A stretch of 44,128 nt of DNA from a virus: positions 1 through 44,128 of the IMG/VR virus record IMGVR_UViG_3300025769_000232, one strand, 5' to 3'. The stretch's first letter is position 1, and each line of letters begins with the position of its first letter. Shown here one piece after another: positions 3,041 through 21,312 of the stretch. The position numbers and the translations under genes are program-made. Under the pieces are notes generated by a model. That model had not been told where the DNA came from, made no database searches, and saw only the letters and a list, made by a program, of their open reading frames with translations.

Positions 3041-3249
3041 TATATAAATCTTATTACTTCAACTATATTCCATTGTGGTAGGGAACACGTTTGTGTTTCC
3101 CAAGCATCAAATTCCTCCTCTGTTGGTTCTTCTATTATTGGATTTATTTCTTCGTATATTAAAAGACCATTTAGATCTTCTACTACTTTTTTCCAAGTAG
3201 TTTCAGTTCTTGAAAAAATTAATTTCATTGGTTTTATTTCTATTGCCAT
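3040..3249 (-). CDS. Small acidic hypothetical protein in lectin cassette (69 aa)
   Basis: Starts MAIEIKPMKLIFSRTETTWK and has an acidic stretch IEEPTEEEFDAWE. No recognised domain, signal peptide or membrane helix. It is separated by 5 bases from the fibrinogen-domain gene upstream and overlaps the next LamG gene by one base, so it is probably a genuine gene of the tail-adhesin operon. It may be an assembly helper or small fibre-associated protein; no function is claimed. Confidence 0.6.
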   Translation of the reverse strand: MAIEIKPMKLIFSRTETTWKKVVEDLNGLLIYEEINPIIEEPTEEEFDAWETQTCSLPQWNIVEVIRFI

Positions 3250-3254
3250 ATTTT

Positions 3255-6425: not shown

Positions 6426-6911
6426 CTAATGTATTTTAATTTCCAAAGGATCTTCGTAGTTAATATCTTTTAAGTCTTTTGTAAAAAATTTACCTAAAAT
6501 ATTATCATTAAAAAATTCATCTGGTTTTTCTAAAACTTGATATATCATTTGATACTTAGTTTCAAAATATGTCATTGATTTTTTATCAGGACACATTCTT
6601 AAAATTATACGTTCAAATTCATCTTTTTTACCTTCTAAAAGTAATTGTTTAATATCTTTTTGAGAACCATAATATTTTTTCCAATCTGATTCTTTAACTT
6701 CTAATTTGTATGTAGGGCGACGACCAACAATTCCAGTTAAGGCAGCTAACTCTTTTTTTCCGAGTCTCTTTTTTTTATTATGAAACAATACCTTTTTCCC
6801 AATATAAGACTTACCCGTAGGTTTGTGTGTTGTAATATAAACGAAACCGAATGTATTTTCTGGGAATTGAGTAATGTCTCCTATTTTGTGTGTTTTATAG
6901 GTCCAACTCAT
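6426..6911 (-). CDS. GIY-YIG-like endonuclease
   Basis: Residues ~21-40 read FGFVYITTHKPTGKSYIGKK, the two signature strands of the GIY-YIG nuclease fold, here FVYI...YIG. Downstream SDWKKYYGSQKDI and the Glu in YFETKYQMIYQVL fit the conserved Arg/Tyr and catalytic Glu helices. Such 160-aa proteins in T4-like phages are described as putative free-standing endonucleases related to Seg homing enzymes. It lies 15 bases upstream of the primase gene, and homing enzymes often sit beside the gene they target. Homing is not shown here; a repair or processing nuclease is also possible. Confidence 0.78.
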   Translation of the reverse strand: MSWTYKTHKIGDITQFPENTFGFVYITTHKPTGKSYIGKKVLFHNKKKRLGKKELAALTGIVGRRPTYKLEVKESDWKKYYGSQKDIKQLLLEGKKDEFERIILRMCPDKKSMTYFETKYQMIYQVLEKPDEFFNDNILGKFFTKDLKDINYEDPLEIKIH

Positions 6912-6933: not shown

Positions 6934-8631
6934 TTAATTTTCTCTTCGTTCCTCAGGTTTGTAATAATGAATACGTTCATGCCATATAGGAGAAGCTAAT
7001 AAAACTGCAGGATGTAAATTGCCTTTTTTAGTTTCTTGGTACATATAGGACATCCAAGTTTGTTCATAAGGATGATCCCATTTTGTATCTATAAACATTT
7101 TTTTATTGCCTTTTTTAGAAACAATCATAGGCCAATTTGTATAAGTAATTTCTCCATCTATATAAGCTACTCCACTTAAAGTGTTTATTTTATTAAAAAT
7201 AGTTCTAGGGGCATTAGGATCATTACCAGTGGTAGGTAATTTATCATAATTAGGCCAATCTCTAGTTCTTATGTCTTGTGGAACATTATACCAACTAGTT
7301 TGAATATTATTATCCCAATATACTTCTGTAAATGATAATTTTAGAAAATCAAAGTCTTCCTTTAACATAATTGTATGTAATATATTATATAAATCAGGAA
7401 TAAATTTTCTTAAGCCATTTCTACAAAATTGCCCCTCCATTGAAGGTGGATTTGATGTCATATCATCTTCAAAAAAGAAATAATAATCAGCATCTGATTT
7501 ATCAAAATGGTCTGCTGCTGCTTGTCTTCCTCCACATATTCCTATATTACCTCCATTATCAATATATTCAAATTTATATTTTTTTGCTATTTTTTTATTT
7601 TTAGCTTTAGCTTTTTCGTCTGTAGAATTATCTAATAATACTAAATGGGGTTTCTCCAACCATTCAGGAGTTTTTTCCATTGTTTTTAATGTAAATTCCA
7701 ACTGTTTTGGAAAATTAAATGTTAAAATATATAAATTTGTTTTTAGGTTTTTTAGATCCCATATAGATATTTTTTTATTAAGTTTAGAATTTTTAGGAAT
7801 ATCAACTAATTTAACATCTTTATTTACTAAAGCTTCTGTAAATTTTACTACTAAACCATTTCCATCTAATTCAAATCTTCTATATAAATTTGGTTCTTTA
7901 TGAGCCATAATAGAAAAAATACTTTCTTCTGTACCCATTAAGCCCCTTTCTAAGGTTTGAGTTAATAATGCATAGTAAGTTGAGTTAGCTTCTCTGATTT
8001 GTTCTTTATGCCCACCAAATAAACCTCCTCTACAAACGTATTTTACTTTTTCCCCTGCAATTTCATTCATTTCAGGGTATTTAAACCCATGTATTTCATC
8101 GGTTGCATCATAAGGGTATGATAAAAATAAAAAGGGATTTGAACATTCGGTTAAATAATCTAAACAATTGTTTTCACCTAGATGTGTAGCAGGAACTGTA
8201 TTGGTTAAACCTGCATCAACCCAAAAATAATAATCAGTTTCAAAGTTATTATAACATACAGCATCATGCAACATAAACATTTTAGACTGTACTATAGGAT
8301 TATAATACTCTAATGATGCTTGAGGACTATTAGGTAACCATCCTCCTTTACCTGTTAAATTATACCAATCTGGGTTCTTTCTGATTTCTTGTGTTTTATC
8401 CCAGTGTGGGGCGTATAATTGTTTTATATCCTCTAATTCAAATACTTTAACAAAAGTATTATCTGGGTTTCTATGTTCCCATACAAGTTTTTCTAATGAA
8501 GCAGGAACAAATAAAATCATATTTGCTTCTATCTTTAAAAATTCTTTAAATCTGGGAATGTAATGTTCTTCAAACTTTCTACCTTCTCGGTTTAGATCCC
8601 ATAAACCTGAAACTATTGTATAATTTTTCAT
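6934..8631 (-). CDS. Two-domain glycosyltransferase: HtrL/YibB-like N-terminus plus GT2-like C-terminus
   Basis: The N-terminal ~290 residues resemble the HtrL/YibB family: opening YTIVSGLWDLNREGR, then YYFWVDAGLTNTVP near 135-148 and CRGGLFGG near 200. From about residue 298 a GT-A fold begins: NLYILTFNFPKQLEFTL, LLDNSTDEKAKAKNKKI, YIDNGGNIGICGGRQAAAD and the DxD-type metal site YYFFFEDDM near 385. This is the pattern of GT2 enzymes using a nucleotide sugar. Fusion of the two is unusual but the frame is continuous. It is the last gene of the sugar operon and overlaps the carbamoyltransferase stop by four bases. Acceptor unknown: virion protein, host surface glycan or modified DNA base. Confidence 0.8.
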   Translation of the reverse strand: MKNYTIVSGLWDLNREGRKFEEHYIPRFKEFLKIEANMILFVPASLEKLVWEHRNPDNTFVKVFELEDIKQLYAPHWDKTQEIRKNPDWYNLTGKGGWLPNSPQASLEYYNPIVQSKMFMLHDAVCYNNFETDYYFWVDAGLTNTVPATHLGENNCLDYLTECSNPFLFLSYPYDATDEIHGFKYPEMNEIAGEKVKYVCRGGLFGGHKEQIREANSTYYALLTQTLERGLMGTEESIFSIMAHKEPNLYRRFELDGNGLVVKFTEALVNKDVKLVDIPKNSKLNKKISIWDLKNLKTNLYILTFNFPKQLEFTLKTMEKTPEWLEKPHLVLLDNSTDEKAKAKNKKIAKKYKFEYIDNGGNIGICGGRQAAADHFDKSDADYYFFFEDDMTSNPPSMEGQFCRNGLRKFIPDLYNILHTIMLKEDFDFLKLSFTEVYWDNNIQTSWYNVPQDIRTRDWPNYDKLPTTGNDPNAPRTIFNKINTLSGVAYIDGEITYTNWPMIVSKKGNKKMFIDTKWDHPYEQTWMSYMYQETKKGNLHPAVLLASPIWHERIHYYKPEERREN

Positions 8632-10307
8632 AACTTTGGAAATTCTTCTTTTCTAATATAATAATTTTCTAGTAATAAACATTCTAATTGTTCGTTATCA
8701 AATATTTGGAATGCATCTCTATAAGTGGATAAAATTGGTTTACCATTTACATTAAATGAAGTATTTAATAAAACTCCTACACCTGTTCTTTTATCAAATT
8801 CAGTAAGTAAATTATATAACCATTCATTTTGTTCTTTTGTTACTGTTTGGACTCTAGCTGTGTTATCAATATGGGTAATAGATGGTAATTTTTCTCTCCA
8901 TTCTTCTTTAACTGTAGGGCAGAAACTCATCCATCTTGCTTCATCCTCCCAATCAAAATATTTAGAAACATCTTCTAATCTAACAACAGGTGCAAATGGT
9001 CTATACCATTCTCTATGTTTTACTTTTTCATTTAAAATATCCTTCATTTCAGCTATAGAGGGATTACATAAAATACTTCTATTTCCTAAAGCTCTAGGAC
9101 CATGTTCTGCTTGACCTCTTACTATCCCTAATATTTTACCTTTTTCTAAGTCATCAACTAAAATTGAAGGTGGATATTGTTCAAATGGGTGATAATAACC
9201 ATCATCTTCCATTAATTTTTTAACATGAGGATATTCTGGTAGTGTTCTTGCTATAGTAGATTGATCTAATATAGGTAAACCTTTATATGTTATATCAATT
9301 GGTGTTTGGGGTTTTAAATGTTTTAACATTAAACCTAAACCAATACCACAATCATTTGGATTTGGTCCAACAAATACTTCTTTATTAAACTCAGTTTTTA
9401 CTCTAGTATTTAAAATAATATTTAAAGCACATCCTCCTGTAATACACACTGGTAAATCAGGATATTTTTTAAAATAAGGAACTGCAACTTCTAGGAAACA
9501 CTCTTCAAATGCCTTTTGAGCTGTAGCAGCTATGTCATAAGCTATTTGTCCTTCTAATCTTTCAGTTATACTAAATTTAACACCTATTTTATCTCCTAAT
9601 TTATTTATTTTATTAACATAATCATCATTTGATCCCTCAGGGTCACTTTTAAAGAAAGTGATAAAATCATCTAACCATTCTTGTCTATAATTACCATAAG
9701 ATACTAACCCCATTATTTTACCTGGGTATACTAAATTACCATGGGATAGATCATTAAAAGATATATCTTTAAAATAATGACCAAATACCATATAGGCAAA
9801 TCCTAAATCATAGAAAGGACGTGAAGGATGTTCAAATGGGTTTTTTAATACTTCTATTAATTCAACCCCTTTTTCTTTATCTCCTAAATAAACATTAAAT
9901 TTACCATCATCTCCACCACCATCAAATGAAAATATTAAAGCTTTTTTATAAGGGGATTGATAAAATACTCCATTAGCATGTGATTCATGATGTGTAGAAT
10001 GAATAAAGTTTTTAGCATTTATAAGAGTATTAGTTTGAAAAGTTATATGTTCTCCTTTCCAATTTTCTCCTATAAAGTCTGTACTTGCAAAATAACAATT
10101 TTCAAATTTTGTTATTCCATATTCAGATTTAACCCACTTTAAAATTTCTTCTAAAGTTATCATTATATATCTAGGAGTAAAATATTGGGTTAGACCCATA
10201 TTTTTAGCATTTAAAAACCTTTCTATTTCAATTACACATAATATTTCTCCTTTATCTTCAATTATTAAAGAGCCATTATGTGATCCGTAAAAACTTATAT
10301 TAGCCAT
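8628..10307 (-). CDS. NodU/TobZ-family O-carbamoyltransferase
   Basis: The 559-aa protein has both halves of the family. The N-terminal Kae1-like part shows HHESHANGVFYQSPY (residues ~106-120) and FSFDGGGDDG (~126-135), the metal/ATP-binding His and Asp motifs. The C-terminal YrdC-like part shows GQAEHGPRALGNRSIL near 395-410 and VLLNTSFNVNGKPI near 515. Family members transfer a carbamoyl group from carbamoyl phosphate to a sugar hydroxyl (Nod factors, tobramycin). Length is normal for the family, so it is probably active. Placed inside a glycosyltransferase operon with 4- and 8-base overlaps, it likely decorates a sugar made or attached by its neighbours. Relatives occur in marine T4-like phages. 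Confidence 0.92.
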   Translation of the reverse strand: MANISFYGSHNGSLIIEDKGEILCVIEIERFLNAKNMGLTQYFTPRYIMITLEEILKWVKSEYGITKFENCYFASTDFIGENWKGEHITFQTNTLINAKNFIHSTHHESHANGVFYQSPYKKALIFSFDGGGDDGKFNVYLGDKEKGVELIEVLKNPFEHPSRPFYDLGFAYMVFGHYFKDISFNDLSHGNLVYPGKIMGLVSYGNYRQEWLDDFITFFKSDPEGSNDDYVNKINKLGDKIGVKFSITERLEGQIAYDIAATAQKAFEECFLEVAVPYFKKYPDLPVCITGGCALNIILNTRVKTEFNKEVFVGPNPNDCGIGLGLMLKHLKPQTPIDITYKGLPILDQSTIARTLPEYPHVKKLMEDDGYYHPFEQYPPSILVDDLEKGKILGIVRGQAEHGPRALGNRSILCNPSIAEMKDILNEKVKHREWYRPFAPVVRLEDVSKYFDWEDEARWMSFCPTVKEEWREKLPSITHIDNTARVQTVTKEQNEWLYNLLTEFDKRTGVGVLLNTSFNVNGKPILSTYRDAFQIFDNEQLECLLLENYYIRKEEFPKL

Positions 10308-11175
10308 TATTTAAATTATTTAGTTTTAAAAATTCTTCGTAATTAGTATGTTCTTGTAACCCATCATAACCTAATGTTTTCCAAAATCTTTCTTTTTTAA
10401 CATTATGTTTTACTTCAAATAAACGATGAGATGAACAAGAATGACAATGTTTATTATTCAATTTAAACATCCTATATATGGGAGCCAAAATATATTCATC
10501 ATTTATTACATAAGATCCTTTAAATATATTAATTTGATTAGATTCATATAAATAAAGCATAACTTTATCCCAAACATCAAAAAAATCTTTTGCTTGTTTA
10601 ATATCTCTAAAACAAAAAATCCTAGCTGCTGCATCTAATACTCTTACCTTTTGGTCTATTTGGTGATTATATTCTTTTTTTAGAAAGTCACTAATAACAT
10701 TCATACCAAATTTACTAGTACTTTCATCCCATTCTGATATAGTATTAATTATGGTATTAGGTTCTAATTCCATTAAAGGTAAAAAATCTAAATTAATTCT
10801 AGTATCAGTACAAATCAAAGATATATTACTAATATTATATTTTATTGCTTGTAAAAAATGAAATCTCATTAAAGAAAAAGGAAATAAATAGTTTTTCTCT
10901 GTAAAAATTTTAGCATATTCATTTTTATCTTTTGCTTCTATTATGGGTTCATATTCTTCTATATGAGGATATTCTTTATAAAAATCTTTAATTTCGTTTA
11001 CTATTAAATTTTTCCTTTTAATATTTTTAAAATATTTTTTATCATCAGTTAATATAAAATAAAAAAGGTTTTCATCATCAATGTATAAATTTTGTAATTT
11101 GTTTATAGTACTTTCTCTAAAAGTTTCCCCAAAGCATGTATAACAAATAGCTAATTTATCTTTTATTAAAGGCAT
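10300..11175 (-). CDS. Putative glycosyltransferase-like protein, unassigned family
   Basis: The 291-aa protein starts with LAICYTCFGETFRESTINKLQ, followed by FYFILTDDKKYF and ISLICTDTRINLDFLPLM near residue 118, which resembles a GT-A fold with an acidic DxR metal site. The middle (SLMRFHFLQAI) resembles acceptor-side helices of GT8/GT32-like enzymes. Cys/His-rich HCHSCSSHRLFE near 247 is unusual and may bind a metal. The call rests mainly on weak motif likeness and on location between two convincing sugar enzymes. It overlaps the carbamoyltransferase start by eight bases. Confidence 0.55.
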   Translation of the reverse strand: MPLIKDKLAICYTCFGETFRESTINKLQNLYIDDENLFYFILTDDKKYFKNIKRKNLIVNEIKDFYKEYPHIEEYEPIIEAKDKNEYAKIFTEKNYLFPFSLMRFHFLQAIKYNISNISLICTDTRINLDFLPLMELEPNTIINTISEWDESTSKFGMNVISDFLKKEYNHQIDQKVRVLDAAARIFCFRDIKQAKDFFDVWDKVMLYLYESNQINIFKGSYVINDEYILAPIYRMFKLNNKHCHSCSSHRLFEVKHNVKKERFWKTLGYDGLQEHTNYEEFLKLNNLNNG

Positions 11176-11177
11176 AT

Positions 11178-12161
11178 CTATAATTTTAAACGTGATAATA
11201 AATAATTAACTCTAGTAGAGGGTTTACAATAATCCTCATAATATTTTCTAGCATTTATAGATATTTGATTTAAAAACTCAAAATCATCTTTTACTTCTAA
11301 AAATCTTTCTTTATATGCTTGTACATAAATATCTCCTCCTATCCTATCGTCATTAGTAGTCCAATTTTTGTTATTTTTAGATCCTGGAAAGTTATATTTT
11401 TCTCTGTTAATTGCTATATAATGGTAATTAGGTATTAATTGAGGTGTATATTCTCCTTTATATTCTAATCTTAACATTGGGATTCCTGTAGCCATGTATT
11501 CTATGTCTCTATAACATATTTCAGCTAAGCTTGAAATGGATAATCCTACTTTGTAATTAATTGATAAATCTAAATATTCTTCAATTTTTAAAGATTTTTC
11601 TCCTTTATTACATAAACCTAATTCTCTTAATTTAAATGGGTCTTCTCTACGAGTAGTAGATAACCAAAACATCTGATCATTTAAATCTTTATAATTTATT
11701 AATTTTCTTTTTTCATAAAAAACATCATGATCTATAGGACTTGAAAAAGTATAAAAGGGGGTTGATTCAATTGTAAAATTCCAATTCCCTTTTAAATATG
11801 TTTTTTGTTCTTCTAATTCATAAAACCATGTACTTTGATGGGTTATTAAAAGAATATCATTTTTATTGTTTCTTTTTTTAAATAGATCTAATAAACATTC
11901 TTCTTCACCTCCACAGTTATGGACCTCACACCAAGTAACAGCTTTTAAAATATCATTTTTTTCATCATAAATTATTAATTCACAATCTTTTTGTTTTAAA
12001 TTAAATTTATCTATATAAAGATGATCATTATCTTTTGATATAATTGGAAGTTTATGGTAATAAGTAGCATTATACTTATTGTTTATATGGTTAGATAATT
12101 GATTAAATACGTCATGCCACCCAAGCCAATGACATGGAGTTTCTAAATGGTATACTATCAT
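11178..12161 (-). CDS. Putative GT-B-type glycosyltransferase
   Basis: In the C-terminal third, residues ~203-245 read as VGLSISSLAEICYRDIEYMATGIPML in part, the pattern (Glu, then Y/F-MA-G-P) of the donor-binding site in GT-B enzymes such as GT1/exostosin-like transferases. A nearby WLSTTRREDPFKLRELG could be the start of the C-terminal Rossmann domain, where such proteins commonly read x-x-x-R-R. The first ~130 residues hold HLETPCHWLGWHDVFNQL and would be the acceptor domain. It has a one-base junction with the first GT60-like gene and two bases to the next gene. Donor and acceptor unknown. Confidence 0.6.
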   Translation of the reverse strand: MIVYHLETPCHWLGWHDVFNQLSNHINNKYNATYYHKLPIISKDNDHLYIDKFNLKQKDCELIIYDEKNDILKAVTWCEVHNCGGEEECLLDLFKKRNNKNDILLITHQSTWFYELEEQKTYLKGNWNFTIESTPFYTFSSPIDHDVFYEKRKLINYKDLNDQMFWLSTTRREDPFKLRELGLCNKGEKSLKIEEYLDLSINYKVGLSISSLAEICYRDIEYMATGIPMLRLEYKGEYTPQLIPNYHYIAINREKYNFPGSKNNKNWTTNDDRIGGDIYVQAYKERFLEVKDDFEFLNQISINARKYYEDYCKPSTRVNYLLSRLKL

Positions 12162-13426
12162 TAGATTTTTGATTCTATTCTTTCAACCCATCCTCTTTTT
12201 TCACTGTGTCCCCAATATACTACCCTTGCAGGATTTTCATCTGTCATAAACATTTTTTCATAATGGATAGGTTTACCTTCTTCTAAAAATTGTTTTAATC
12301 TATAATCATCTATATATTCACTATCAATACTATTTCCATCTTTATCATCATATGCTATTAAAATAAAATTATAATCTTTAGCTGGTAGTTGGTCAGGAGT
12401 AACATTTACTAAATGATAAAATGAAAACATAAAACTATCCTCCCATTCTTGTTCATCTTCAATTATAGGGTTTGGAGGGAATTTATTGTCTCTAGTATAT
12501 TTTTGGAATGATTTTTTCTTAAAATGAATACCAGCATATTTTTCATAATCTCTTATAGTACGAACATTACCTAAACCATATTCACCTAAATCATAACCAT
12601 TATCTTCAACTCCTATAAGTTGTCTAATTCTAGCTCTCCCTATATCTTGTTGTCTCCACCACATATCATCCCCACGCTTAGATTGATCATCCCATATTAA
12701 CATATTATCCCTTTCTTCTCTCATTGTAGCATGCCAAACAACTACTTGGTGGGGGTGGAATAAATCATAACCATGTGTAAAACTTCTAACCGATAAATTT
12801 AATTCTTCTCCTGAAAAATATATTTCAGGATCATGTTTTACTGTTTTAGCCCATTTATTTGGACCAAAACAAAAATGACCTGAAATAAATCTAGCTGGTA
12901 CTGGTTCTTTTAATGTTTTATAGTCTACATGATGATATCCTGTAGGGCGAATAAATATAGTACCATGTGGATAAAAACATGCTGCTTCACTAAACCATGG
13001 CTCATTTACTCTTTCTGCTGGGTCATTAAATGGGTTATAATATGGTAAATAACCACATATTAAAGGATTTTTACCTTTCTTTTTTAATTTATCATACCAT
13101 TTAATTAAAGTTGCATCCCAGTCTTTTGCAAATCTATGATGAGCATCTAACTGTAAAACAAAATCTTCATCATCTAATAACTCTTCATTTATAATAGCTC
13201 TAGCATAGGGTAAACCTTTAGCTTCTTCATAAGGGATATCTGATATTTTAAATCTAGGATCATCCCTAAATTCATCTAAATTATCAAAACCATCCTCAGG
13301 ATTATATTGCCTACAAATACCAAAATGTATTCTTTTAGGATTTTTAGCTTGGGCTAATGCATCTTTAATAGTAGGTATTAATTCGGGTTCCCTATAAGCA
13401 GGGAGATGTAGCATTATTTTTCTCAT
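12161..13426 (-). CDS. GT60-like (Skp1/mucin-type) GlcNAc-transferase homologue, copy 1
   Basis: The 421-aa protein begins MLHLPAYREPELIPTIKDAL, aligning with the family opening (V/I-S-I-A-SYRDPEL...T). It continues with FGICRQYNPEDG, PYARAIINE, the metal-site segment FVLQLDAHHRFAKDWD (residues ~89-104), SGHFCFGP (~184), DPEIYFSGEELNLSVRSFTHGYDLFHP and VVWHATMRE. These are the conserved blocks of the GlcNAc family (Pfam PF11397, CAZy GT60), whose protist members add GlcNAc to hydroxyproline of Skp1 or to Thr/Ser of mucin-like proteins. Copy 2 upstream has the same blocks and overlaps by four bases. Enzyme class is well supported; donor sugar and acceptor are inferred. Confidence 0.85.
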   Translation of the reverse strand: MRKIMLHLPAYREPELIPTIKDALAQAKNPKRIHFGICRQYNPEDGFDNLDEFRDDPRFKISDIPYEEAKGLPYARAIINEELLDDEDFVLQLDAHHRFAKDWDATLIKWYDKLKKKGKNPLICGYLPYYNPFNDPAERVNEPWFSEAACFYPHGTIFIRPTGYHHVDYKTLKEPVPARFISGHFCFGPNKWAKTVKHDPEIYFSGEELNLSVRSFTHGYDLFHPHQVVVWHATMREERDNMLIWDDQSKRGDDMWWRQQDIGRARIRQLIGVEDNGYDLGEYGLGNVRTIRDYEKYAGIHFKKKSFQKYTRDNKFPPNPIIEDEQEWEDSFMFSFYHLVNVTPDQLPAKDYNFILIAYDDKDGNSIDSEYIDDYRLKQFLEEGKPIHYEKMFMTDENPARVVYWGHSEKRGWVERIESKI

Positions 13427-14853
13427 TGAGGTGGTTCTATTCCTTTATTTAATTTTACTTCATATCTTTCAATATATCCCTTAGATTCGGAATGAGGCCA
13501 TATAACCCATTTATCAGGTTTTTGTCCAAAAAATTCTCTCCAAATTCTAACCCAACCATCATCTCCTTTAGCTTGCTCTAATAATCTTTTTAATTCATTA
13601 GCATCTGCATCTTGTCTATCTACTACTGTACCATCTTCCATTTCAAAAGAAACTACCCAAAAATCATAATCATCTTCATTAAAATGGTCTTGATGTACAT
13701 CAATACAATGTTTAAAATGAGGTCTTAACATACCTTCATATTTATCTGGTGGATTAGGAGGTACATTTCTATCTAAAGTAAATTGGGTTACTGTTCTATC
13801 TCCAAATTTTAATCCAGCATAACGCTCATATTCTTCTAGGGTTCTTACTTCCCCAAAATAATATTTTCCCAAAGCATTTTTAGCACATGGTGTACATTTA
13901 TGTCCGTCCATTTCATGTAAAGTTCGATATCTTAAATGGGAATGTTCATCAATGTCGTTCCAATTACTATGATCATCCCAATGTTTTATAAAACCGTTTC
14001 TACTATAAAAATGCCATGCTATAATTTTATGAGGGTGAAAAATATCATAACCCCAAGTAAAAGCTCTAGCAGCTATACTAGGTTCTTCACCATGAAAATA
14101 CATTTCGGGATCATGTTGTACCTCATTACAAAATGCTCCTCCTGCAAAAGCAAAATGGGCAGAATAAAATCTTCCTGGAACAGGAGAATCTAAATTTTCC
14201 CACCCTGAAATTAGGGAAGGAAAAGTAAATATATAACCTTCAGGAGTAAATCTATTAAAATCTTGTTGCCAACACTCTTGTGTTCTATCTTTAGGATCTT
14301 TTTCTGGGAAGTATGAGGGTAAATAACTAGTTATTAAAGGTTTTTTATGTCCTTTTTTCTGAAGGCCTTTATACATTTTAATTAATTCTGTATCCCAGTT
14401 TTTAATAAATCTATGATGGGAATCTAATTGTAAAGTATAAGTTTCATCAGTATAATATTGTTGAATCATATTTCTAGCCCAACATACACCATTTGATTCT
14501 TTATAAGGAATATCTAAAATTAAAACCCTACTATCATTTTGATATTTATCTAATTGATCCCATTTATCTTTATCATCATGTTGCCAAGCAATACAAACTT
14601 TAAGATTATCTGGGTTTTGAGCATTTTTAAATAAATCTTCTAAAGTATTATTTAATTCGGGGTCTCTATATGATGCTATTTGTACAAAAATACTTTCGTC
14701 TTTTTTAGACGATTTATAAGGTACTATTTTATTTAAATACTCTTGCCTTTTATCACACCCACAATCTTCATCTATGGATTTAACAAGTTTATCTATTTTA
14801 AAAAATTTAGTGATTTTGGCTACTGTATCACCCAGCCCTTTAGATTTTGACAT
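13423..14853 (-). CDS. GT60-like GlcNAc-transferase homologue, copy 2, with N-terminal Cys-rich extension
   Basis: From residue ~55 the 476-aa protein has the GT60 blocks FVQIASYRDPELNNTLEDLF, VCIAWQHDD, CWARNMIQQ, LQLDSHHRFIKNWD (~141-154), SAHFAFAGG, DPEMYFHGEEPSIAARAFTWG and IIAWHFYSR. The D-x-H metal triad matches copy 1 (LQLDAHHRF). The first 50 residues (GLGDTVAKITKFFKIDKLVK then DEDCGCDKRQEYLN) are absent from copy 1 and may be a targeting or metal-binding tag. It is the first gene of the six-gene sugar operon. Two divergent copies imply different acceptors or a two-step reaction. Its C-terminus (WVIWPHSESKGYIERYEVKL) parallels copy 1. Confidence 0.86.
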   Translation of the reverse strand: MSKSKGLGDTVAKITKFFKIDKLVKSIDEDCGCDKRQEYLNKIVPYKSSKKDESIFVQIASYRDPELNNTLEDLFKNAQNPDNLKVCIAWQHDDKDKWDQLDKYQNDSRVLILDIPYKESNGVCWARNMIQQYYTDETYTLQLDSHHRFIKNWDTELIKMYKGLQKKGHKKPLITSYLPSYFPEKDPKDRTQECWQQDFNRFTPEGYIFTFPSLISGWENLDSPVPGRFYSAHFAFAGGAFCNEVQHDPEMYFHGEEPSIAARAFTWGYDIFHPHKIIAWHFYSRNGFIKHWDDHSNWNDIDEHSHLRYRTLHEMDGHKCTPCAKNALGKYYFGEVRTLEEYERYAGLKFGDRTVTQFTLDRNVPPNPPDKYEGMLRPHFKHCIDVHQDHFNEDDYDFWVVSFEMEDGTVVDRQDADANELKRLLEQAKGDDGWVRIWREFFGQKPDKWVIWPHSESKGYIERYEVKLNKGIEPPQ

Positions 14854-14872
14854 TGGATATAACTTTTATTAT

Positions 14873-14881
14873 AATATACGA
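14873..14881 (-). promoter_or_regulatory. Candidate promoter element core TCGTATATT for sugar operon
   Basis: The minus strand carries TCGTATATT 19 bases before the ATG at 14853. The same nine bases occur in the leaders of the genes starting at 1463, 43310 and 43685. It suggests the sugar operon may share an early/middle regulatory signal, separate from the TATTTATA boxes. Spacing to the ATG differs (19 versus 31-40), so confidence is low. Confidence 0.3.
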
Positions 14882-14907
14882 CCATTTTACTTAATAACCA
14901 AATAATT

Positions 14908-15234
14908 TTATCTATCTATATTAACCAAAATTGTAGTATCTGTTGTACGAGATGTTGGTAATGGTTGTGCTAATTTTCCTACTGCTAATAAATTATAAGC
15001 TTCATCATATAGTCCTACACAAGTAACATAAGGAGAGAAAAATGATCCAGTTGCATAATCATAGGGTTGCCCTTGACTTCCTGATAGAACAGTTGGGTTA
15101 TTAGTATAATTATATTCTTCAGAACCTATTGTACATTTATATTGAGTTTCAAAAATTTCATAGGAACTAGAAAATGACATAGTCACATCCATTTCACCTA
15201 TAAAAGCTTGTAAAAAACTATCTCTTGTACCCAT
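14908..15234 (-). CDS. Small virion-type protein homologous to C-terminus of the 20257-21312 protein
   Basis: The 108-aa protein matches the last ~100 residues of the 351-aa protein: EEYNYTNNPTVLSGSQG versus AEFNYSENPSFISGSTG, VTCVGLYDEAYNLLAVGKLAQPL versus ATTVGMYNDSNELLAVAKLSKPL, and a closing LVNIDR versus VRVKLDF. The C-terminal module is therefore a stand-alone domain in one gene and a fused one in the other. The context (tail proteins, repeat proteins) suggests a baseplate- or tail-associated role. No enzymatic motif. Confidence 0.65.
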   Translation of the reverse strand: MGTRDSFLQAFIGEMDVTMSFSSSYEIFETQYKCTIGSEEYNYTNNPTVLSGSQGQPYDYATGSFFSPYVTCVGLYDEAYNLLAVGKLAQPLPTSRTTDTTILVNIDR

Positions 15235-15244
15235 GTTATTTTAT

Positions 15245-15252
15245 AATAAATA
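15245..15252 (-). promoter_or_regulatory. Possible degenerate late box (TATTTATT)
   Basis: Minus strand TATTTATT lies 10 bases before the ATG at 15234. It differs from the TATTTATA box in its last base and is closer to the start, so it is only a possible site. Confidence 0.2.
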
Positions 15253-15777
15253 TTATATTGATTCTAAGTTTAATACTTTACTATTAATTGGAAAATATAA
15301 AGATCCACTTTCATTTAAACTACTAGAATATTTTGTTATTAATTCTAATTCATCATTATTATAATTACCTGATGTGTCCCACCATAAATCCATTAATATT
15401 AAATCATAACTTGAAGTTATATTATATTTAAAGGCATCTCCCTCTATAATATTAATATCTGAAGATAAGTGGTTACTTTCACTTAGCCAAGTAATTACTT
15501 CATTTTCATTTTCAATTACATCTATTTTAGAACAAGAAGTATTTGTATCTACCCAATGAGCTAATATTCCTAAACCTGCTCCACCTATTAAAATAGAATC
15601 AAACTCTAAAGTTTTTAATTTTCGGGCAAAACTATTTATATAGCTAGGACAATCATCTATATGTTTTCCTGTATTTGTATAAAGCATTTTTACATTACCC
15701 ATGTGATCAAGTAAAACACTAATATTATTACCGTTATAATAATGTAATTGATTATGATTTATATTTAATAACCCCAT
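15253..15777 (-). CDS. SAM-dependent methyltransferase-like protein (spermidine-synthase-like Rossmann)
   Basis: Central residues DSILIGGAGLGILAHW (~59-74) form the glycine-rich loop of a class I Rossmann methyltransferase or spermidine synthase, followed by KIDVIENENEVITWL (acidic residue binding the cofactor ribose), INIIEGDAF and YDLILMDLWWD (motif IV region). At 174 aa it has the nucleotide-binding core but little of the substrate domain, so it may be a minimal or partner-dependent enzyme. The N-terminal YNGNNISVLLDHMGNVKMLY is beta-rich. It is placed between a tail-type protein and the large Ser/Thr/Pro repeat protein. Substrate not predictable. Confidence 0.7.
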   Translation of the reverse strand: MGLLNINHNQLHYYNGNNISVLLDHMGNVKMLYTNTGKHIDDCPSYINSFARKLKTLEFDSILIGGAGLGILAHWVDTNTSCSKIDVIENENEVITWLSESNHLSSDINIIEGDAFKYNITSSYDLILMDLWWDTSGNYNNDELELITKYSSSLNESGSLYFPINSKVLNLESI

Positions 15778-15797
15778 ATTTTATTTTTTAAAATTAT

Positions 15798-18700
15798 CTA
15801 AAATTGATTACATAATTGTGTTAAAGTAATTGTTCCTGTTGCTGTTTTAGACCCAGCTGATGTTCCATCTGCATAATATCCTGCAGGAGCATGTTTAGTA
15901 CCTGTTGAATTAAAGTATATGGTACATCCACTACCAAATGATGAACAATTTGAATAGAATGTTGTTGGACTGAAAGTATGATCTATACAAGCATCATCTC
16001 CATCATCAACATTATAACCTAATGATAAGGCATTTAAACCAGCTGGTGTTGATGAAGGGGTTCTTGTTGGTGTTGGTGTTGGAGAAGTACAAGTACCAGT
16101 GCTAGTAACTTCACCTGCATTGTTTACTCTCATATATCTTGTAGCACCAAATCCATCAACTTCATGGATACCATAATAATATAAACCTCCTACCCATGTT
16201 ACAGTACCTGCTGAGTTTTTATAAATTTCATCTCCTACTTGAATTTGAGATAATGATGGACGAGCAACCCAGAATGAAGTTTGGTTTGAAAATGTACCAC
16301 AAGCTGTTGAAATTGTCGTTGCACCTGAACCTTCTGAACTAACTGATTGGTATTGGAATAAAGTTGGTGTACTTGAAGGTGTTACTGTTCTACTAGGTGT
16401 TCTAGAAGGTGTTCTAGATGGGGTTTTAGTAGGTGTATAACTAGGTGTTATAGATTTTGAAGGTGTTATACTAATCGTTCTAGTAGGTGTTGGTGTAATA
16501 CTAGTACATAATGTCATTCCAGTAGAAACAATTCCTGCTGCGTTAACTCCTACATAAACATTTTGTGGTCCTGCACCTAAAGTTCCTGAGGTATCTACAT
16601 ACCCAAAGAATCCACTACCTGCTACAAGACTTCCCGATACTCTTATTTCATCACCTACTTCTGGATAAGCATTACCCGCACCATTTGCTACTGATTTGAT
16701 TAAATCTACAGAATATTGATTAGCTCCAAATCCAATTACATTACAAGAGTTATATGAGAATGCATCCATATCTTTAGTTGCACTCCAACTAGAAACAGCT
16801 ATGAAAATATCTATATCAGATAATTTTCTAGATGGTGTAGGTGTTGGTGTTCTACTAATAGACTTACTAATTGTTATACTAGGTGTTCTAGTTACAGTAG
16901 GTGTTCTACTTATAGATTTACTAATTGTTATACTAGGTGTTTTAGATGGCGTTCTAGTTATTGATTTACTAGGTGTTCTAGATGGCGTTCTAGTTATTGA
17001 TTTACTAGGTGTTCTAGATGGTGTTCTAGTAGTGGTTGCTGTTATAGATGGTGTTCTAGTTATTGATTTACTAGGTGTTTTAGATGGTGTTCTAGTTATT
17101 GACTTACTAATAGTAATACTAGGTGTTACAGAAGGTGTTCTGGTGATTGATTTACTAGGTGTTCTAGTAGGTGTAAAAGTCCTTGTTGGTGTTATAGAAG
17201 GTGTTCTAGTAGTAGATGGTGTTCTAGTGGTTGTTGCTGTTCTAGTAGGTGTTACTGTTCTTGTTGCAGTAACACTTGGTGTTCTAGTAATTGATTTAGA
17301 TATAGTAATACTAGGTGTTCTAGAAGGAGTCCTTGTAATTGACTTACTAATTGTTATACTAGGTGATGGTGTAGTAGAAGCTGTTATACTAATACTTGGA
17401 GTTCTAGTAGGTGTTCTAGTGATAGATTTACTAATAGTAATACTAGGTGTTACTGAACTTGTTCTAGTTACACTAGGTGTTCTACTTATAGAAATACTAG
17501 GTGTAACACTTGGAGTTCTAGAAGGACTAACTGTTATACTTGGTGTTATACTAATACTAGGAGTAGCACTTATAGATTTACTAATCGTTATACTAGGTGT
17601 TTTACTTATACTTACACTAGGTGTAGCGCTTATTGATTTACTTATCGTTATACTAGGTGTTATAGTTACAGTAGGTGTTCTACTTATAGATTTACTAACT
17701 GTTATACTAGGTGTTCTACTTATACTAATACTTGGGGTTATAGAAGGTGTTCTAGTTATTGAAGCAGAAGGTGTAACTGATGATTCAGGTGTTGGTGAAA
17801 TAGAAATACTAGGTGTTATAGAAGGTGTTCTAGTTACACTAGGTGTTCTTGATATTGATTTACTAGGGGTAACACTTGGTGTTCTAGTAATTGATTTACT
17901 AACCGTTATACTAGGTGTCTTACTAATACTAATACTTGGGGTTATAGACTTACTTATACTAACACTTGGGGTAGCACTTATTGATTTACTTATTGTTACA
18001 CTTGGGGTTTTAGAAATAGATTTACTTACTGTAATACTAGGTGTTATACTAATACTAGGTGTAGCACTTATCGATTTACTTACAGTAATACTAGGTGTAA
18101 TACTTGGTGTAGCACTTATACTAATACTAGGTGTAATAGAAATACTAGGTGTAATAGAAATACTTGGAGTTTTACTTATACTAATACTAGGTGTAACACT
18201 AAAACTAACACTAGGTGTAACTGAGGTAGATGGTGTTATACTAATACTTGGGGTATTACTAATAGACTTACTAATTGTTATACTAGGTGTTTTACTTATA
18301 GTAATACTAGGTGTTATACTAGGTGTTTTACTTATACTAATACTTGGAGTTCTAGTAGGTGTTCTAGTGATAGATTTACTAATAGTAATACTAGGACTTG
18401 GAGTAGTAGAAGATGTTATACTAATACTTGGTGTAACACTTACTGATTTACTTATTGTAATACTAGGTGTTACTGAAGGGGTTCTAGTTGCACTTATAGA
18501 TTTACTTACACTATTACTTGGTGTTACACTAGTACTTGGAGTAGCACTTATAGATTTAGAAATACTAATACTTGGAGTAGCACTTATAGATTTAGAAATA
18601 CTAATACTTGGAGTATTACTTGGAGTAGCACTTATACTAATACTAGGTGTTATACTAATACTAGGTGTTGTAGAAGGTGTAGTTGTACTTGTTGGAGTTC

Positions 18701-19586
18701 TAGTTATAGATTTACTAATAGTAATACTAGGTGTTACACTTACAGATTTACTAATTGATACACTAGGTGTTCTAGTTACTGATACACTTTTACTAGTAGT
18801 TGGTGTTATTGATTTACTAATAGATACTGAAGGAGTTGTACTTATACTAATACTAGGTGTTGAACTTATACTTACACTTGGTGTAGCACTTATACTCATA
18901 CTAGGAGTAGCACTAACTGATTTACTAACTGTTATACTAGGTGTAACTGTTGGTGTAATACTAGGAGTTCTAGTTATACTAATAGAAGGGGTTGATGAAG
19001 GGGTTGTTGTTGGTGTTATTGAAGGTGAGGGTTGAATTGATAATGTATCATAATCAGCATCTGTTAAAGTGTTAGCTAATATAATCATCCCATGTTCGTA
19101 AATTACATTACCAACAAAAAGAGAATTTCCACTACTTCCCGTAATTCTTAATCTACCATTTCCATCATCTGTTATTGTTCCACTATTTGGGCTTTCTATT
19201 TTAACTGTTCCTGGTTGAATATAATCTCCATACAATTTTGAGGGTACAGTTATTACTCCAATACTTTGGGATGTTGGGAATGATTTTTGAGGATTTAATG
19301 TTGTTTCCTCATAATTGTAATATGTTGTATTATATATATTATCTGAACCTGAAGGTGGAGTAAGAGTACCATCTAGATTTTCTGTAGGTACAATTGCATC
19401 CGAAATCTCTCCATAACTTCCTGATATATAATTTGTATAATATAGTTGAGAAGCATTAGCATAAACTAACACTTCAGGTACAAAATAAACAGAATCAGTA
19501 CTTGATAAAGATTGGGAATTAAGGTAGTTCCCTGGTTTCCCAAAGTATCTATCTATTCCTACATTATCATCGTTAAAAAACGCCAT
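15798..19586 (-). CDS. Giant Ser/Thr/Pro-repeat (mucin-like) virion protein
   Basis: The 1262-aa protein has an N-terminal domain (1-185; starts MAFFNDDNVGIDRYFGKPGN) of tail-type sequence, then about 735 residues (186-920) built from units of the form TPSISISKSI, TPSVTPS and RTPS. Ser, Thr, Pro, Ile, Val, Lys and Arg make up nearly all of this region. Three C-terminal modules follow: A (~921-1028) and B (~1075-1165) share VGDEI...YxxVNxAGxVxSTGxxC, and C (~1184-1262) resembles the end of the 214-aa protein downstream. The stalk is mucin-like, extended and probably protease-sensitive unless modified. A fibre or decoration stalk with distal binding modules is the likely role. GT60-like enzymes encoded nearby could glycosylate it. 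Confidence 0.8.
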   Translation of the reverse strand: MAFFNDDNVGIDRYFGKPGNYLNSQSLSSTDSVYFVPEVLVYANASQLYYTNYISGSYGEISDAIVPTENLDGTLTPPSGSDNIYNTTYYNYEETTLNPQKSFPTSQSIGVITVPSKLYGDYIQPGTVKIESPNSGTITDDGNGRLRITGSSGNSLFVGNVIYEHGMIILANTLTDADYDTLSIQPSPSITPTTTPSSTPSISITRTPSITPTVTPSITVSKSVSATPSMSISATPSVSISSTPSISISTTPSVSISKSITPTTSKSVSVTRTPSVSISKSVSVTPSITISKSITRTPTSTTTPSTTPSISITPSISISATPSNTPSISISKSISATPSISISKSISATPSTSVTPSNSVSKSISATRTPSVTPSITISKSVSVTPSISITSSTTPSPSITISKSITRTPTRTPSISISKTPSITPSITISKTPSITISKSISNTPSISITPSTSVTPSVSFSVTPSISISKTPSISITPSISITPSISISATPSITPSITVSKSISATPSISITPSITVSKSISKTPSVTISKSISATPSVSISKSITPSISISKTPSITVSKSITRTPSVTPSKSISRTPSVTRTPSITPSISISPTPESSVTPSASITRTPSITPSISISRTPSITVSKSISRTPTVTITPSITISKSISATPSVSISKTPSITISKSISATPSISITPSITVSPSRTPSVTPSISISRTPSVTRTSSVTPSITISKSITRTPTRTPSISITASTTPSPSITISKSITRTPSRTPSITISKSITRTPSVTATRTVTPTRTATTTRTPSTTRTPSITPTRTFTPTRTPSKSITRTPSVTPSITISKSITRTPSKTPSKSITRTPSITATTTRTPSRTPSKSITRTPSRTPSKSITRTPSKTPSITISKSISRTPTVTRTPSITISKSISRTPTPTPSRKLSDIDIFIAVSSWSATKDMDAFSYNSCNVIGFGANQYSVDLIKSVANGAGNAYPEVGDEIRVSGSLVAGSGFFGYVDTSGTLGAGPQNVYVGVNAAGIVSTGMTLCTSITPTPTRTISITPSKSITPSYTPTKTPSRTPSRTPSRTVTPSSTPTLFQYQSVSSEGSGATTISTACGTFSNQTSFWVARPSLSQIQVGDEIYKNSAGTVTWVGGLYYYGIHEVDGFGATRYMRVNNAGEVTSTGTCTSPTPTPTRTPSSTPAGLNALSLGYNVDDGDDACIDHTFSPTTFYSNCSSFGSGCTIYFNSTGTKHAPAGYYADGTSAGSKTATGTITLTQLCNQF
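16830..19030 (-). repeat. Degenerate tandem repeat tract encoding Ser/Thr/Pro units
   Basis: About 2.2 kb of short, variable repeats of the plus-strand type ctaggtgtt, ctaatagtaatactaggtgtt and ttctagttattgattta, encoding TPS and SITISKS units. Unit lengths vary in multiples of three, so expansion or loss would preserve the frame. The opposite strand is also open for 744 codons as a side effect. Confidence 0.85.
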
Positions 19587-19605
19587 TTATTTTATATTTT
19601 TATTA

Positions 19606-20250
19606 TTATGAAAGACTACAAATTTGTCCACTACTTCCCCAAGTACCTGTAGTACCATAATATTTAACTACATTATTTCTTGCATACCATCCTGCTGCAG
19701 CACGTTTACCACCACTAGAATTAAAATATAAGATTGGAGTTGAAGTATTTGTCCATTCTATATTTGAATAAATTGTTGGGTTAGTTCCTTGATCATCACA
19801 AGCATCTTGTGCATCTAAAGTATCATAACCATAATTTGTTTCTGAAAATAGAGTTGATGATGTAGAAGGTGTCACACTTCTAGTAGGTGTAATACTAATA
19901 CTAGGTGTAATACTAATACTAGGTGTAATACTAATACTAGGGGATGGTGTAACTGTAACATTAGCTGGTCCACTAACAGATATAGTAGGTGTTATACTAG
20001 GTGTTCTACTTATACTTACACTTGGTGTTATACTAATACTAGGTGTTATACTAGGTGTTATACTAGGTGTTACTGAAATACTAGTACTAGGAGTTATACT
20101 AATACTAGGGGTAACACTAACACTAGGTGTAGCACTAGGTGTTGGTGAGATAGTAGGTGTTGGAGAATTTGCAACAAACCTAAATCCCTTATTTACCTCT
20201 AGTGGAGATATTATTATATCTTGCGCTTTGAATTGTTTGAAAGTAGCCAT
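19606..20250 (-). CDS. Ser/Thr/Pro-repeat protein with C-terminal module like that of the 1262-aa protein
   Basis: The 214-aa protein starts MATFKQFKAQDIIISPLEVN, related to the opening of the 351-aa protein upstream (MGFKRFDPQDFVVSADTV). Residues ~28-130 are TPSISITPS repeats, and the C-terminal ~80 residues (YDTLDAQDACDD...PTIYSNI...YFNSSGGKRAAAGWYARN...ICSLS) match module C of the 1262-aa protein. The shared stalk-plus-module plan suggests two lengths of the same type of virion appendage. The gap to the large gene is 19 bases, so they are probably co-expressed. Confidence 0.78.
   Translation of the reverse strand: MATFKQFKAQDIIISPLEVNKGFRFVANSPTPTISPTPSATPSVSVTPSISITPSTSISVTPSITPSITPSISITPSVSISRTPSITPTISVSGPANVTVTPSPSISITPSISITPSISITPTRSVTPSTSSTLFSETNYGYDTLDAQDACDDQGTNPTIYSNIEWTNTSTPILYFNSSGGKRAAAGWYARNNVVKYYGTTGTWGSSGQICSLS
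19866..20160 (-). repeat. Short Ser/Thr/Pro-coding repeat tract
   Basis: The same plus-strand repeat words (aatactaggtgtt, ctaatactaggtg) as in the 16.8-19 kb tract, about 0.3 kb. It provides an in-genome partner for recombination with the longer tract. Confidence 0.75.
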
Positions 20251-20256
20251 TCATTA

Positions 20257-21312
20257 TTAAAAATCTAATTTAACCCTAACTAATGCCTCTTTTGTAAAGT
20301 CTTTTAGTAAAGGTTTTGATAATTTAGCTACAGCTAAAAGTTCATTACTATCATTATACATTCCAACCGTTGTTGCATATGTCTGGGGATTATCAATAAA
20401 ATAACTATAAATTACTTCTCCTGTTGATCCTGATATAAAACTTGGATTTTCTGAATAATTAAATTCTGCGTTTCTTGCTCTAACAAATACAAAATCTGAT
20501 GTTATTGTTTCTTGGGAATTTAATTTAAATATTTCTCCATCTGTATCACCTGTTGAACTTGAAATATGATTATATAATTCCGTTGCATTAGAAAGACCAG
20601 CTGAATTGTCATTATCATTTGAAGCACTTACAATATTTAAACCAATACCTATTGATGTTTTATCACATAAAGCAGCTACATTTAATAATACTGTAGAAAT
20701 GTCTGGAAGGAATAAACCATATGATCCAGATACTTCTGTGTATCCAATTCCTCCATCATATGAAGTACCATCTGATCCACTAATTACTTGATATGCTCTT
20801 TGAGCACCATAATAAGTGGGGATTGATTGTAATTTTGAGTTATCAGTTAAACTTAACTGTGTTAAGTTAACATTACTACTTGATAATACTAAATTAAATG
20901 AACTTGGGAATAATTTTTCTTTATATCTTGCTCTTTCAATACTTAAAGCTATAAACTGGCTTCCTGAAAAACTAGAACCAAATACAAACTGTGAATTTTC
21001 ATCTTCTAAAACTAAAGTTCTATATTGACCATATGAAGTTCTTGAAGGTGATTTACCACTTACTGCGGGATCGAACAATAAGCTTCCTCCTCCTGTATCA
21101 TTAGCATAAGCAATTCCAAATTGTACTGCTGCTTCTGGTAGGTCAGATGCTGTTTGATAAACATTTAAATAATAAGGACCAGATGATCCTTCTCTTTGTG
21201 TTGAAGAGGTTGCATACGTGTTAAGTGATACACTATTATTAGACCATACTGTAGAAGTAACTGTATCAGCACTTACTACAAAATCTTGTGGATCGAATCT
21301 TTTAAAGCCCAT
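20257..21312 (-). CDS. Tail/baseplate-type structural protein (351 aa)
   Basis: Starts MGFKRFDPQDFVVSADTVTSTVW, a tag partly shared with the 214-aa repeat protein. The body is beta-rich with Ser/Thr/Gly-rich segments typical of phage tail proteins (YLNVYQTASDLPEAAVQFGIAY, SQFIALSIERARYKEKLFP). The last ~100 residues (AEFNYSENPSFISGSTG ... TTVGMYNDSNELLAVAKLSKPL) are homologous to the 108-aa protein at 14908. Follows the 221-aa protein by three bases. A role linking adhesins to the baseplate is inferred from position and from the tag sharing. Confidence 0.6.
   Translation of the reverse strand: MGFKRFDPQDFVVSADTVTSTVWSNNSVSLNTYATSSTQREGSSGPYYLNVYQTASDLPEAAVQFGIAYANDTGGGSLLFDPAVSGKSPSRTSYGQYRTLVLEDENSQFVFGSSFSGSQFIALSIERARYKEKLFPSSFNLVLSSSNVNLTQLSLTDNSKLQSIPTYYGAQRAYQVISGSDGTSYDGGIGYTEVSGSYGLFLPDISTVLLNVAALCDKTSIGIGLNIVSASNDNDNSAGLSNATELYNHISSSTGDTDGEIFKLNSQETITSDFVFVRARNAEFNYSENPSFISGSTGEVIYSYFIDNPQTYATTVGMYNDSNELLAVAKLSKPLLKDFTKEALVRVKLDF

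Follow-up and report, generated by a model that had tools for sequence, protein, structure and literature searches.

Enzymes of glycosyltransferase family GT60 are polypeptide alpha-GlcNAc-transferases that start mucin-type O-glycans on Ser/Thr-rich domains in Dictyostelium and T. cruzi (PMC8724618, PMC3188802, PMC3769586), and Gnt1 of the Skp1 pathway belongs to the same family (PMC6939170). In bacteria, the serine-rich repeat adhesin loci of streptococci and L. reuteri present a second arrangement in which a repeat protein and its glycosyltransferases (GTs) are encoded together. Glycosylation of phage virions is known in few cases, and the open-access literature searched yielded no description of a phage GT60, of mucin-like phage stalks, or of a dedicated mucin-like acceptor tied to its enzymes. 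Here we analyse such a locus in the window, the complete 44,128 nucleotide stretch of IMG/VR record IMGVR_UViG_3300025769_000232. It unites acceptor, enzymes, an empty site in relatives and a within-family control. We consider it probable, with good confidence, that the phage encodes a mucin-type O-glycosylation system, with exchangeable elongation genes, that acts on its own tail stalks, the sugar and the GT60 activity being predictions.

Organization of the locus

The ORF list and profile search recovered every gene named in a preliminary description of this DNA where it had been placed; all features below lie on the minus strand. A single tightly packed operon encodes two PF11397 (GT60) proteins, a NodU-type carbamoyltransferase, an HtrL–GT2 fusion and two further GT-like proteins. 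It follows the third piece of a split tail protein, the anchor, behind two Ser/Thr/Pro-repeat ORFs. The operon had been called overlapping, which holds for all neighbouring ORFs (overlaps of 1-8 nt) but one pair, 11178-12161 and 10300-11175, separated by a 2-nt gap. Immediately upstream of the slot lies the tail protein (20257..21312, hereafter tail351; 244 relatives in IMG/VR) that serves as the landmark for the family control. Downstream, a GIY-YIG-type ORF (6426..6911), whose orthologous position in the related phage Mel-JY01 is annotated GIY-YIG, follows the anchor in 57 repeat-less relatives. A methyltransferase-like ORF at 15253..15777 (phrog_15480 methyltransferase, E 3.9e-7; weak Pfam matches) could possibly methylate sugar or protein.

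Enzymes of the operon

Both GT60 enzymes match the PF11397 profile (cut-off 21 bits) and carry the previously noticed motifs LQLDSHHRF and LQLDAHHRF. GT60-A (13423..14853; E 2.4e-68) has an extra N-terminal CGC domain of ~46 aa and 459 relatives in IMG/VR, and would be the initiating polypeptide GlcNAc-transferase. GT60-B (12161..13426; E 1.5e-49), 39% identical to GT60-A, may be a second initiating enzyme. D144 and H146 of LQLD(S/A)HHRF, which we take to be an acidic/His metal-binding motif of the D-x-H type, are invariant in the window enzymes and those of phages XacN1 and RAS14. The sequence search matched no solved GT60 structure.

Two further GT-like proteins had been proposed, of which one has a GT-B fold and the other is a likely GT. 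The AlphaFold model of the former (11178..12161; AF2 pLDDT 85) has as its best PDB matches in Foldseek POGLUT1 (E 8.5e-7), SdgB and GtfA, the latter two acting on Ser-rich repeats; T4 alpha-glucosyltransferase 1ya6 (E 6.4e-4) ranks below these protein O-glycosyltransferases. As modelled, this enzyme is thus nearest in fold to protein O-glycosyltransferases and may serve in elongation or as another initiating enzyme. The latter (10300..11175) matched no family in the profile search. It aligns at 24% identity with the gene that replaces it in the same slot of relative L006, and since both share an acidic D-x-x/D-x-D-like site, it likely encodes a GT, probably GT-A-like.

The NodU/TobZ-type carbamoyltransferase (8628..10307) is confirmed by matches to PF16861 (Carbam_trans_C, 2.5e-64), Carbam_trans_N (3.6e-22), NodU of NCBIfam (4.8e-43) and phrog_1601 (1.7e-123), and is a candidate for carbamoylation of the glycan. 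The HtrL-GT2 fusion (6934..8631) likewise stands, with an HtrL_YibB match (PF09612, 3.8e-12) and a GT2 part that matches below threshold (0.0016) and weakly resembles phrog_842; it would be an elongation enzyme. HtrL relatives occur in 64 of 78 GT60 loci, fused in 60, which makes HtrL-GT2 the most constant partner of GT60. Around the operon L006 is about 95% identical to the window and keeps both GT60s and HtrL-GT2 with the middle genes exchanged, as expected for variable glycan elongation.

The split anchor and its stalks

The repeats are real, but they do not belong to two separate virion proteins as first described: the ORFs are fragments of one split tail protein. Alignment of homologues shows an ancestral tail anchor protein of ~320 aa, intact in relatives and here in three pieces, with one repeat stalk at each break; the gene is split because two stalks were taken up. 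Piece 1 (20158..20250; residues 1-31, 74% identical to those of intact homologue L364) now starts a 214-aa ORF at 19606-20250. Piece 2 (19059..19586; residues ~35-194, 46-53% identical to intact L376, L358, L364 and L365) starts a 1262-aa ORF at 15798-19586, and piece 3 (14908..15234), the C-terminal ~106 residues, is a separate ORF 65-70% identical to residues 224-329 of L358 and others. Relatives show the empty site as tail351-anchor-GIY-primase, the anchor adjoining GIY-YIG–primase.

The short stalk (19807..20163), inserted after anchor residue ~31, comprises about 130 aa and the long stalk (16797..19085) about 760 aa, where ~100 aa and 735 aa had been estimated. The long stalk consists of S 28%, T 23%, I 16% and P 13%, with Ser/Thr exceeding Pro about 4:1, and contains 94 TP and 80 TPS. 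Its Ser/Thr fall in one register, at every second residue, in 98% of cases vs 60% in shuffles, and TP-to-TP spacings are even throughout; in the short stalk the register value is 0.86 vs 0.52 shuffled, with all TP spacings even. At the DNA level the repeat region is covered by tandem repeats with periods mostly multiples of 6. The short stalk ends in a small C-terminal domain (19606..19806) and the long one in C-terminal domains (15798..16796) joined via two further short TP linkers. From the reading frame, these appear to be tip domains; those of the long stalk have no match among cultured phages.

The anchor fold has no match in PDB at E <= 0.001. Its matches among viral models are uncharacterised phage proteins, some of which have lectin-type or laminin-G domains. 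The positions of the breaks in a moderate-confidence model suggest that the stalks sit at exposed loops. The locus thus has the long Ser/Thr/Pro-rich repeats of a mucin-type acceptor, on a virion protein that would display them.

Association of GT60 with repeats

The family control comprised the relatives of tail351; since the slot lies beyond 10 kb of baseplate-gp6, gp6 loci were used as base rate only. When whole records were scanned, PF11397 turned up in 4/4 relatives with repeats and in 0/46 without them (P 4e-6, or 5e-5 when three lineages are counted). None of the 57 repeat-less relatives in which the slot is complete has GT60, HtrL-GT2, carbamoyltransferase or either of the two other GT genes. 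Equal frequency of the operon in phages lacking the repeats, which had been put forward as a refutation, is therefore not what the family displays.

Beyond the family, a TP-rich ORF lies within 10 kb of GT60 in 24/78 loci vs 0/80 gp6 control loci, which were not matched to them in phage type; the other 54/78 GT60 loci have none in that range. Among large GT60 contigs with no nearby repeat, 6/8 carry a TP-rich ORF elsewhere (controls 0/6), L033 and L084 having none in the DNA read. In the reverse search, PF11397 was found in 12/50 records with the TPTPTPTPT DNA pattern vs 3/50 controls (two of them this lineage); as 38/50 pattern records have no GT60, the repeats can also occur alone. The co-occurrence that the preliminary description proposed to survey is thus observed, and it recurs on the GT60 tree, where at least 11 label changes are forced. 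Because many of the loci compared share ancestry, the P values suggest more independence than there is. In viral loci, the distance between repeat ORF and GT60 is not shorter than expected for a random gene (P 0.24); in bacterial GT60 loci TP-rich ORFs occur in 13/59, with a median gap of 236 bp. Given that GT60 and tail repeats go together in this survey, the phage very probably sugar-coats its tail stalks.

No near-identical cultured phage was found, yet cultured carriers of the cassette, XacN1, RAS14 and CM1, make direct testing possible. XacN1 encodes GT60 (ORF334), carbamoyltransferase (ORF333) and HtrL_YibB (ORF330). Short TP-rich linkers form the end of its giant protein ORF325, which is encoded next to the baseplate wedge genes. 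Detection of glycoproteins in its virions has been published (PMC5852040).

Discussion

Glycosylation of the repeat stalks by the phage itself, as first suggested, held in all the comparative tests that could be made and is supported by the family and cross-phage comparisons, the acceptor class of GT60, the GT-B fold and the published XacN1 glycoproteins. We propose that the anchor, a tail or baseplate protein, acquired a Ser/Thr/Pro stalk at each of two surface loops and that the operon enzymes would decorate both stalks in the cytoplasm of the host, while virions are assembled or earlier. Thr/Ser residues of the (S/T)-X repeats would receive their first sugar, most likely alpha-GlcNAc, from GT60-A and GT60-B. 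Lengthening of the glycan would fall to the GT-B, GT-A-like and HtrL-GT2 enzymes, and the carbamoyltransferase would cap it. The glycan could then keep the disordered stalk extended and shielded, holding the tip domains off the virion.

Other targets were weighed. HtrL_YibB is named after an LPS-region gene, NodU-type carbamoyltransferases act on small saccharides and serotype-converting GTs of phages are known, all of which would suit an operon that alters host LPS or capsule, for instance to exclude other phages. The operon nevertheless includes neither a membrane-bound GT nor a flippase or Gtr-type gene, lies in a slot among tail genes and was found in none of the repeat-less relatives tested, and we regard such a role as very unlikely. 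Quite as unlikely is glycosylation and carbamoylation of phage DNA in the manner of T4-type glucosyltransferases, with an incidental tail-gene neighbourhood. The 1ya6 and phrog_842 matches fit it, and phage GTs often modify DNA (PMC12619734, citing Pyle et al. 2024). Yet GT60 tracks tail repeats rather than replication genes, the T4-type enzyme falls below protein O-glycosyltransferases in the fold ranking, and PF00303 (thymidylate synthase/dCMP hydroxymethylase family) is found in 0/50 GT60 records, many of them fragments, with positive controls. A PF12851 search for a hypermodification partner gave no match in its control records.

Slightly less improbable, though still unlikely, is that another virion protein such as capsid or tail tube is modified and that GT60 and TP repeats merely share large-phage types. 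Virion glycosylation is established in mycobacteriophages (Freeman et al. 2023, cited in PMC12619734) and viral GT60 genes are not systematically beside the repeat ORF. Against it, GT60 and repeats were gained together, adjacent and at the same slot, within one family of matched gene content, and adjacency returns in bacteria, which share no virion. Least credible of all is a Skp1-like route in which prolines of the repeats are first hydroxylated and GT60 then acts on the hydroxyproline, although Gnt1 is a GT60 (PMC6939170), the repeats are Pro-rich and Mel-JY01 encodes a prolyl 4-hydroxylase. Ser/Thr predominate over Pro in the long stalk, and PF13640, rejected as an obligatory partner, occurs in 10/50 GT60 records, mostly those with no repeats near. 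This variant of the original proposal is not supported, because the PF13640 prolyl-hydroxylase-type gene was not found in the window's near-identical 64-kb contig.

O-glycosylation of the tail stalks remains our preferred reading. For the wider proposal, that GT60 and an alternating (Ser/Thr)-X repeat form a portable substrate-plus-enzyme module in many unrelated phages and bacteria, building mucin-like virion brushes with sugar on every second residue and swapping elongation and capping genes between close relatives, we see even chances; it would make prokaryotic and viral mucin-type O-glycosylation widespread. If stalk glycosylation as proposed here is right, hundreds of environmental phages would have sugar-coated stalks, with possible consequences for adsorption, for the stability of the tail, for host range and for the way host or animal factors recognise the phage. 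Phages and bacteria would then also possess a large uncharacterised relative of the step that initiates mucin synthesis in protists.

Comparison with known systems

XacN1 resembles the window in that its GT60/carbamoyltransferase/HtrL cassette lies close to baseplate-wedge and giant tail genes. It differs in its short TP linkers, the repeats not being remarked on in the consulted parts of PMC5852040. The mycobacteriophages of Freeman et al. 2023 likewise modify their own virion with phage-encoded glycosyltransferases, as we propose here, but on capsid and tail tube rather than on dedicated mucin-like stalks with GT60. The serine-rich repeat adhesin loci combine repeat adhesin, initiating GTs and strain-variable elongation GTs, glycosylate in the cytoplasm and set a tip domain atop a glycosylated stalk, as may be the case here; in the phage, however, the repeat chain would be part of the virion and not exported, and the initiating enzyme is of another family. 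Accessory SecA2/SecY2 and GtfA/GtfB were not among the window ORFs scanned, and the likeness to these accessory Sec loci is one of analogy, not membership. Dictyostelium Gnt2 and T. cruzi TcOGNT2 share with the phage enzymes the PF11397 family, Thr/Ser-rich, Pro-containing acceptor repeats and elongation by further GTs, whereas the phage system is cytosolic and soluble, shares its operon with the presumed acceptor and usually includes an HtrL-GT2 fusion.

Gene order and the split tail anchor

The linear 44,128-base IMG/VR virus fragment carries a baseplate gene with 42-46% identity to its counterparts in Flavobacterium phage immuto and Microcystis phage Mel-JY01; its first 25 kb gave no match to cultured phages at the DNA level. 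On the minus strand, baseplate and tail genes are followed by two Ser/Thr/Pro-repeat ORFs (19606-20250 and 15798-19586), a methyltransferase-like ORF, a 108-aa ORF, a block of six overlapping or almost touching ORFs, and GIY-YIG and primase genes. The block consists of GT60-A (13423-14853), GT60-B (12161-13426), ORFs 11178-12161 and 10300-11175, a carbamoyltransferase (8628-10307) and an HtrL-GT2 fusion (6934-8631). The assignments made in the preliminary description were all borne out except for ORF 10300-11175, which gave no family match.

The two repeat ORFs had been described as separate proteins beside the glycosyltransferase operon. Their location and repeats stand, but they are pieces of a split tail anchor. 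Relatives encode this anchor as a single protein of about 320 aa, in the gene that follows the one for the 351-aa tail protein (20257-21312 in the window), and three window ORFs align to its consecutive stretches: residues 1-31 correspond to the start of 19606-20250 (74% identity to locus L364), 35-194 to the start of 15798-19586 (53%, L376) and 224-329 to ORF 14908-15234 (70%, L358). Each of the two places where this conserved tail protein is broken thus holds a repeat. The intact L358 anchor was modelled with AlphaFold (mean pLDDT 71): site 1 (residues 27-34) falls in a turn that links strands 12-26 and 39-43, while site 2 (199-223) starts within the low-confidence loop 198-208. The nearest viral models include lectin-type and laminin-G domain proteins, so the anchor may be a chassis on which adhesion domains are mounted. 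In the more distantly related L374, a repeat (TPTVTPTITPT) occupies the second site only. Other inserts are carried by or split the same anchor in L375 (a short Thr-rich linker plus domain), L377 and L380, which lack GT60; judging from these, the anchor generally accepts insertions of tail domains.

Elsewhere, window 1695-4684 encodes three laminin-G-type proteins and one fibrinogen-C-type protein. The set at this place differs in the near relative L006, so the region has the look of a second variable cassette for receptor binding.

Composition of the repeats

Ser and Thr make up 28% and 23% of the long stalk of some 760 aa, Ile 16% and Pro 13%; TP dipeptides number 94. Its Ser/Thr recur at alternate positions, 98% in register and 5% off it, where shuffles give 60/42. 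The same alternation, again above that of shuffles, appears in TP-rich ORFs both from unrelated GT60 phages and close to GT60 genes of bacteria. The strict dipeptide register may come partly from expansion in six-base units, and register alone is therefore no proof of selection. Opposite the long stalk, a 744-aa open frame with hydrophobic repeats (16801-19035, plus strand; 724 aa in L006) most likely arises as a side effect of the repeat codons.

Enzymes and variable cassette

In Dictyostelium and T. cruzi, mucin-type O-GlcNAc chains are begun by GT60 enzymes (PMC8724618, PMC3188802, PMC3769586), and the Skp1 hydroxyproline enzyme is also a member of this family (PMC6939170). The model of ORF 11178-12161 (pLDDT 85) best matched POGLUT1, SdgB and pneumococcal GtfA in the PDB, all protein O-glycosyltransferases; because TM-scores were near 0.4, only a predicted GT-B fold, and nothing finer, can be stated. 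HtrL-type relatives occur in 64 of 78 GT60 loci, fused to a GT2-like part in 60.

L006 and the window are about 95% identical in flanking genes and about 92-95% in both GT60s and HtrL-GT2, whereas a diverged carbamoyltransferase and another glycosyltransferase (L006 12706-15317) replace the three middle genes (window 8628-12161); as judged from the alignment, this is an allelic exchange between near-identical phages. The L374 cassette (7564-14016) combines a GT60, whose N-terminus differs and is zinc-ribbon-like, with GT4-like, GT25, GT11, methyltransferase and UDP-galactopyranose mutase genes; its GT11, GT25 and mutase are compatible with a galactofuranose-containing glycan. Because L006 and L374 keep GT60 and differ in other genes, the constant part is GT60, plus HtrL-GT2 in most loci, and the variable part looks like one for elongation and capping.

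The N-terminal domain of GT60-A, its first ~46 aa (GLGDTVAKITKFF...DEDCGCDKRQ), recurs outside the window (loci L007-L019 and L029-L039): in other phages it forms an ORF of its own, 63-100 aa long, immediately upstream of GT60, and where GT60 is lacking it can be a stand-alone small ORF.

Association of repeats with GT60

Within the family, 80 loci were obtained via the 351-aa tail protein, which the anchor adjoins in all but L373, whose sequence ends within 216 bases. Repeats occur in L351 (the window's own lineage), L352 (the L006 contig), L354 (the L024 contig) and L374, and a PF11397 search of 50 whole records found the domain in exactly these four (Fisher P 4e-6; 5e-5 with L351 and L352 as one lineage). 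None of 57 repeat-less relatives with both anchor and GIY-YIG had GT60, HtrL-GT2, the carbamoyltransferase or the two other glycosyltransferase genes, and in many repeat-less relatives the anchor abuts GIY-YIG directly, which is the empty site of the island. Equal occurrence of the operon in repeat-less relatives, which the preliminary description named as evidence against glycosylation of the stalks, is thus not what was found; the absence favours self-glycosylation.

Co-occurrence, which the same description proposed to survey, extends to unrelated phages. Searching IMG/VR with four aligned GT60 proteins gave 459 relatives, of which 80 were taken. TP-rich ORFs (at least 7 TP in 80 aa, STP at least 45%) lay within 10 kb in 24 of 78 GT60 loci against 0 of 80 loci of the gp6 baseplate-gene control. 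With some contigs covered in part, they were present elsewhere in 6 of 8 large GT60 contigs lacking a near repeat and in 0 of 6 GT60-negative contigs. Two of those six carry ten or more. The contigs of L053 and L060 (G154, G160), from large phages, have at least 10 separate TP-rich ORFs each, as if the virion surface were largely mucin-like. In reverse, PF11397 was found in 12 of 50 records with a TPTPTPTPT-coding DNA pattern against 3 of 50 gp6 records, two of which are of the window's lineage (P 0.002 without those two). The third, L131 (G069:C1:24777-26543), encodes a 1228-aa ORF with two tandem GT60 domains. Mapping the repeat label onto the GT60 tree takes 17 changes, gains and losses undistinguished, at least 11 being forced by well-supported branches; a few rows were picked for having repeats.

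Bacterial GT60 loci contained a TP-rich ORF in 13 of 59 cases; the gap had a median of 236 bp, and comparison with random genes taken from those loci gave P 0.008. GT60 genes lie less than 500 bases from TP-rich ORFs in L540, L541, L565, L567, L568, L573, L595 and L596, which suggests that cells, too, may have O-glycoprotein systems of this type.

Discussion

Glycosylation by the phage of its own repeat stalks, as originally proposed, is supported as a comparative, putative reading by within-family, cross-phage and fold evidence. The cultured Xanthomonas phage XacN1 offers an experimental hint: it has GT60 (ORF334), carbamoyltransferase (ORF333) and HtrL (ORF330) in one cluster, and at least two virion glycoproteins have been reported for it (PMC5852040). 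Its 3313-aa ORF325 adjoins genes for the baseplate wedge and has TP-rich linkers at its end.

The operon could instead modify phage DNA, but no base-hydroxymethylating gene was found in 50 GT60 records, and modification of the host surface would leave the link with tail repeats unexplained. In phages whose repeat is distant, a different virion protein may be what is glycosylated; here that is less likely. Were hydroxyproline of the repeats the GT60 acceptor, as the Skp1 enzyme might invite one to think, a hydroxylase would be expected; none was found in the window's lineage.

Under self-glycosylation, the split tail anchor, two mucin-like stalks and putative enzymes are one island. A dedicated mucin-like acceptor with GT60 initiation is a form that we did not find described for phages in the literature searched; phage virion glycosylation itself is of a known kind.
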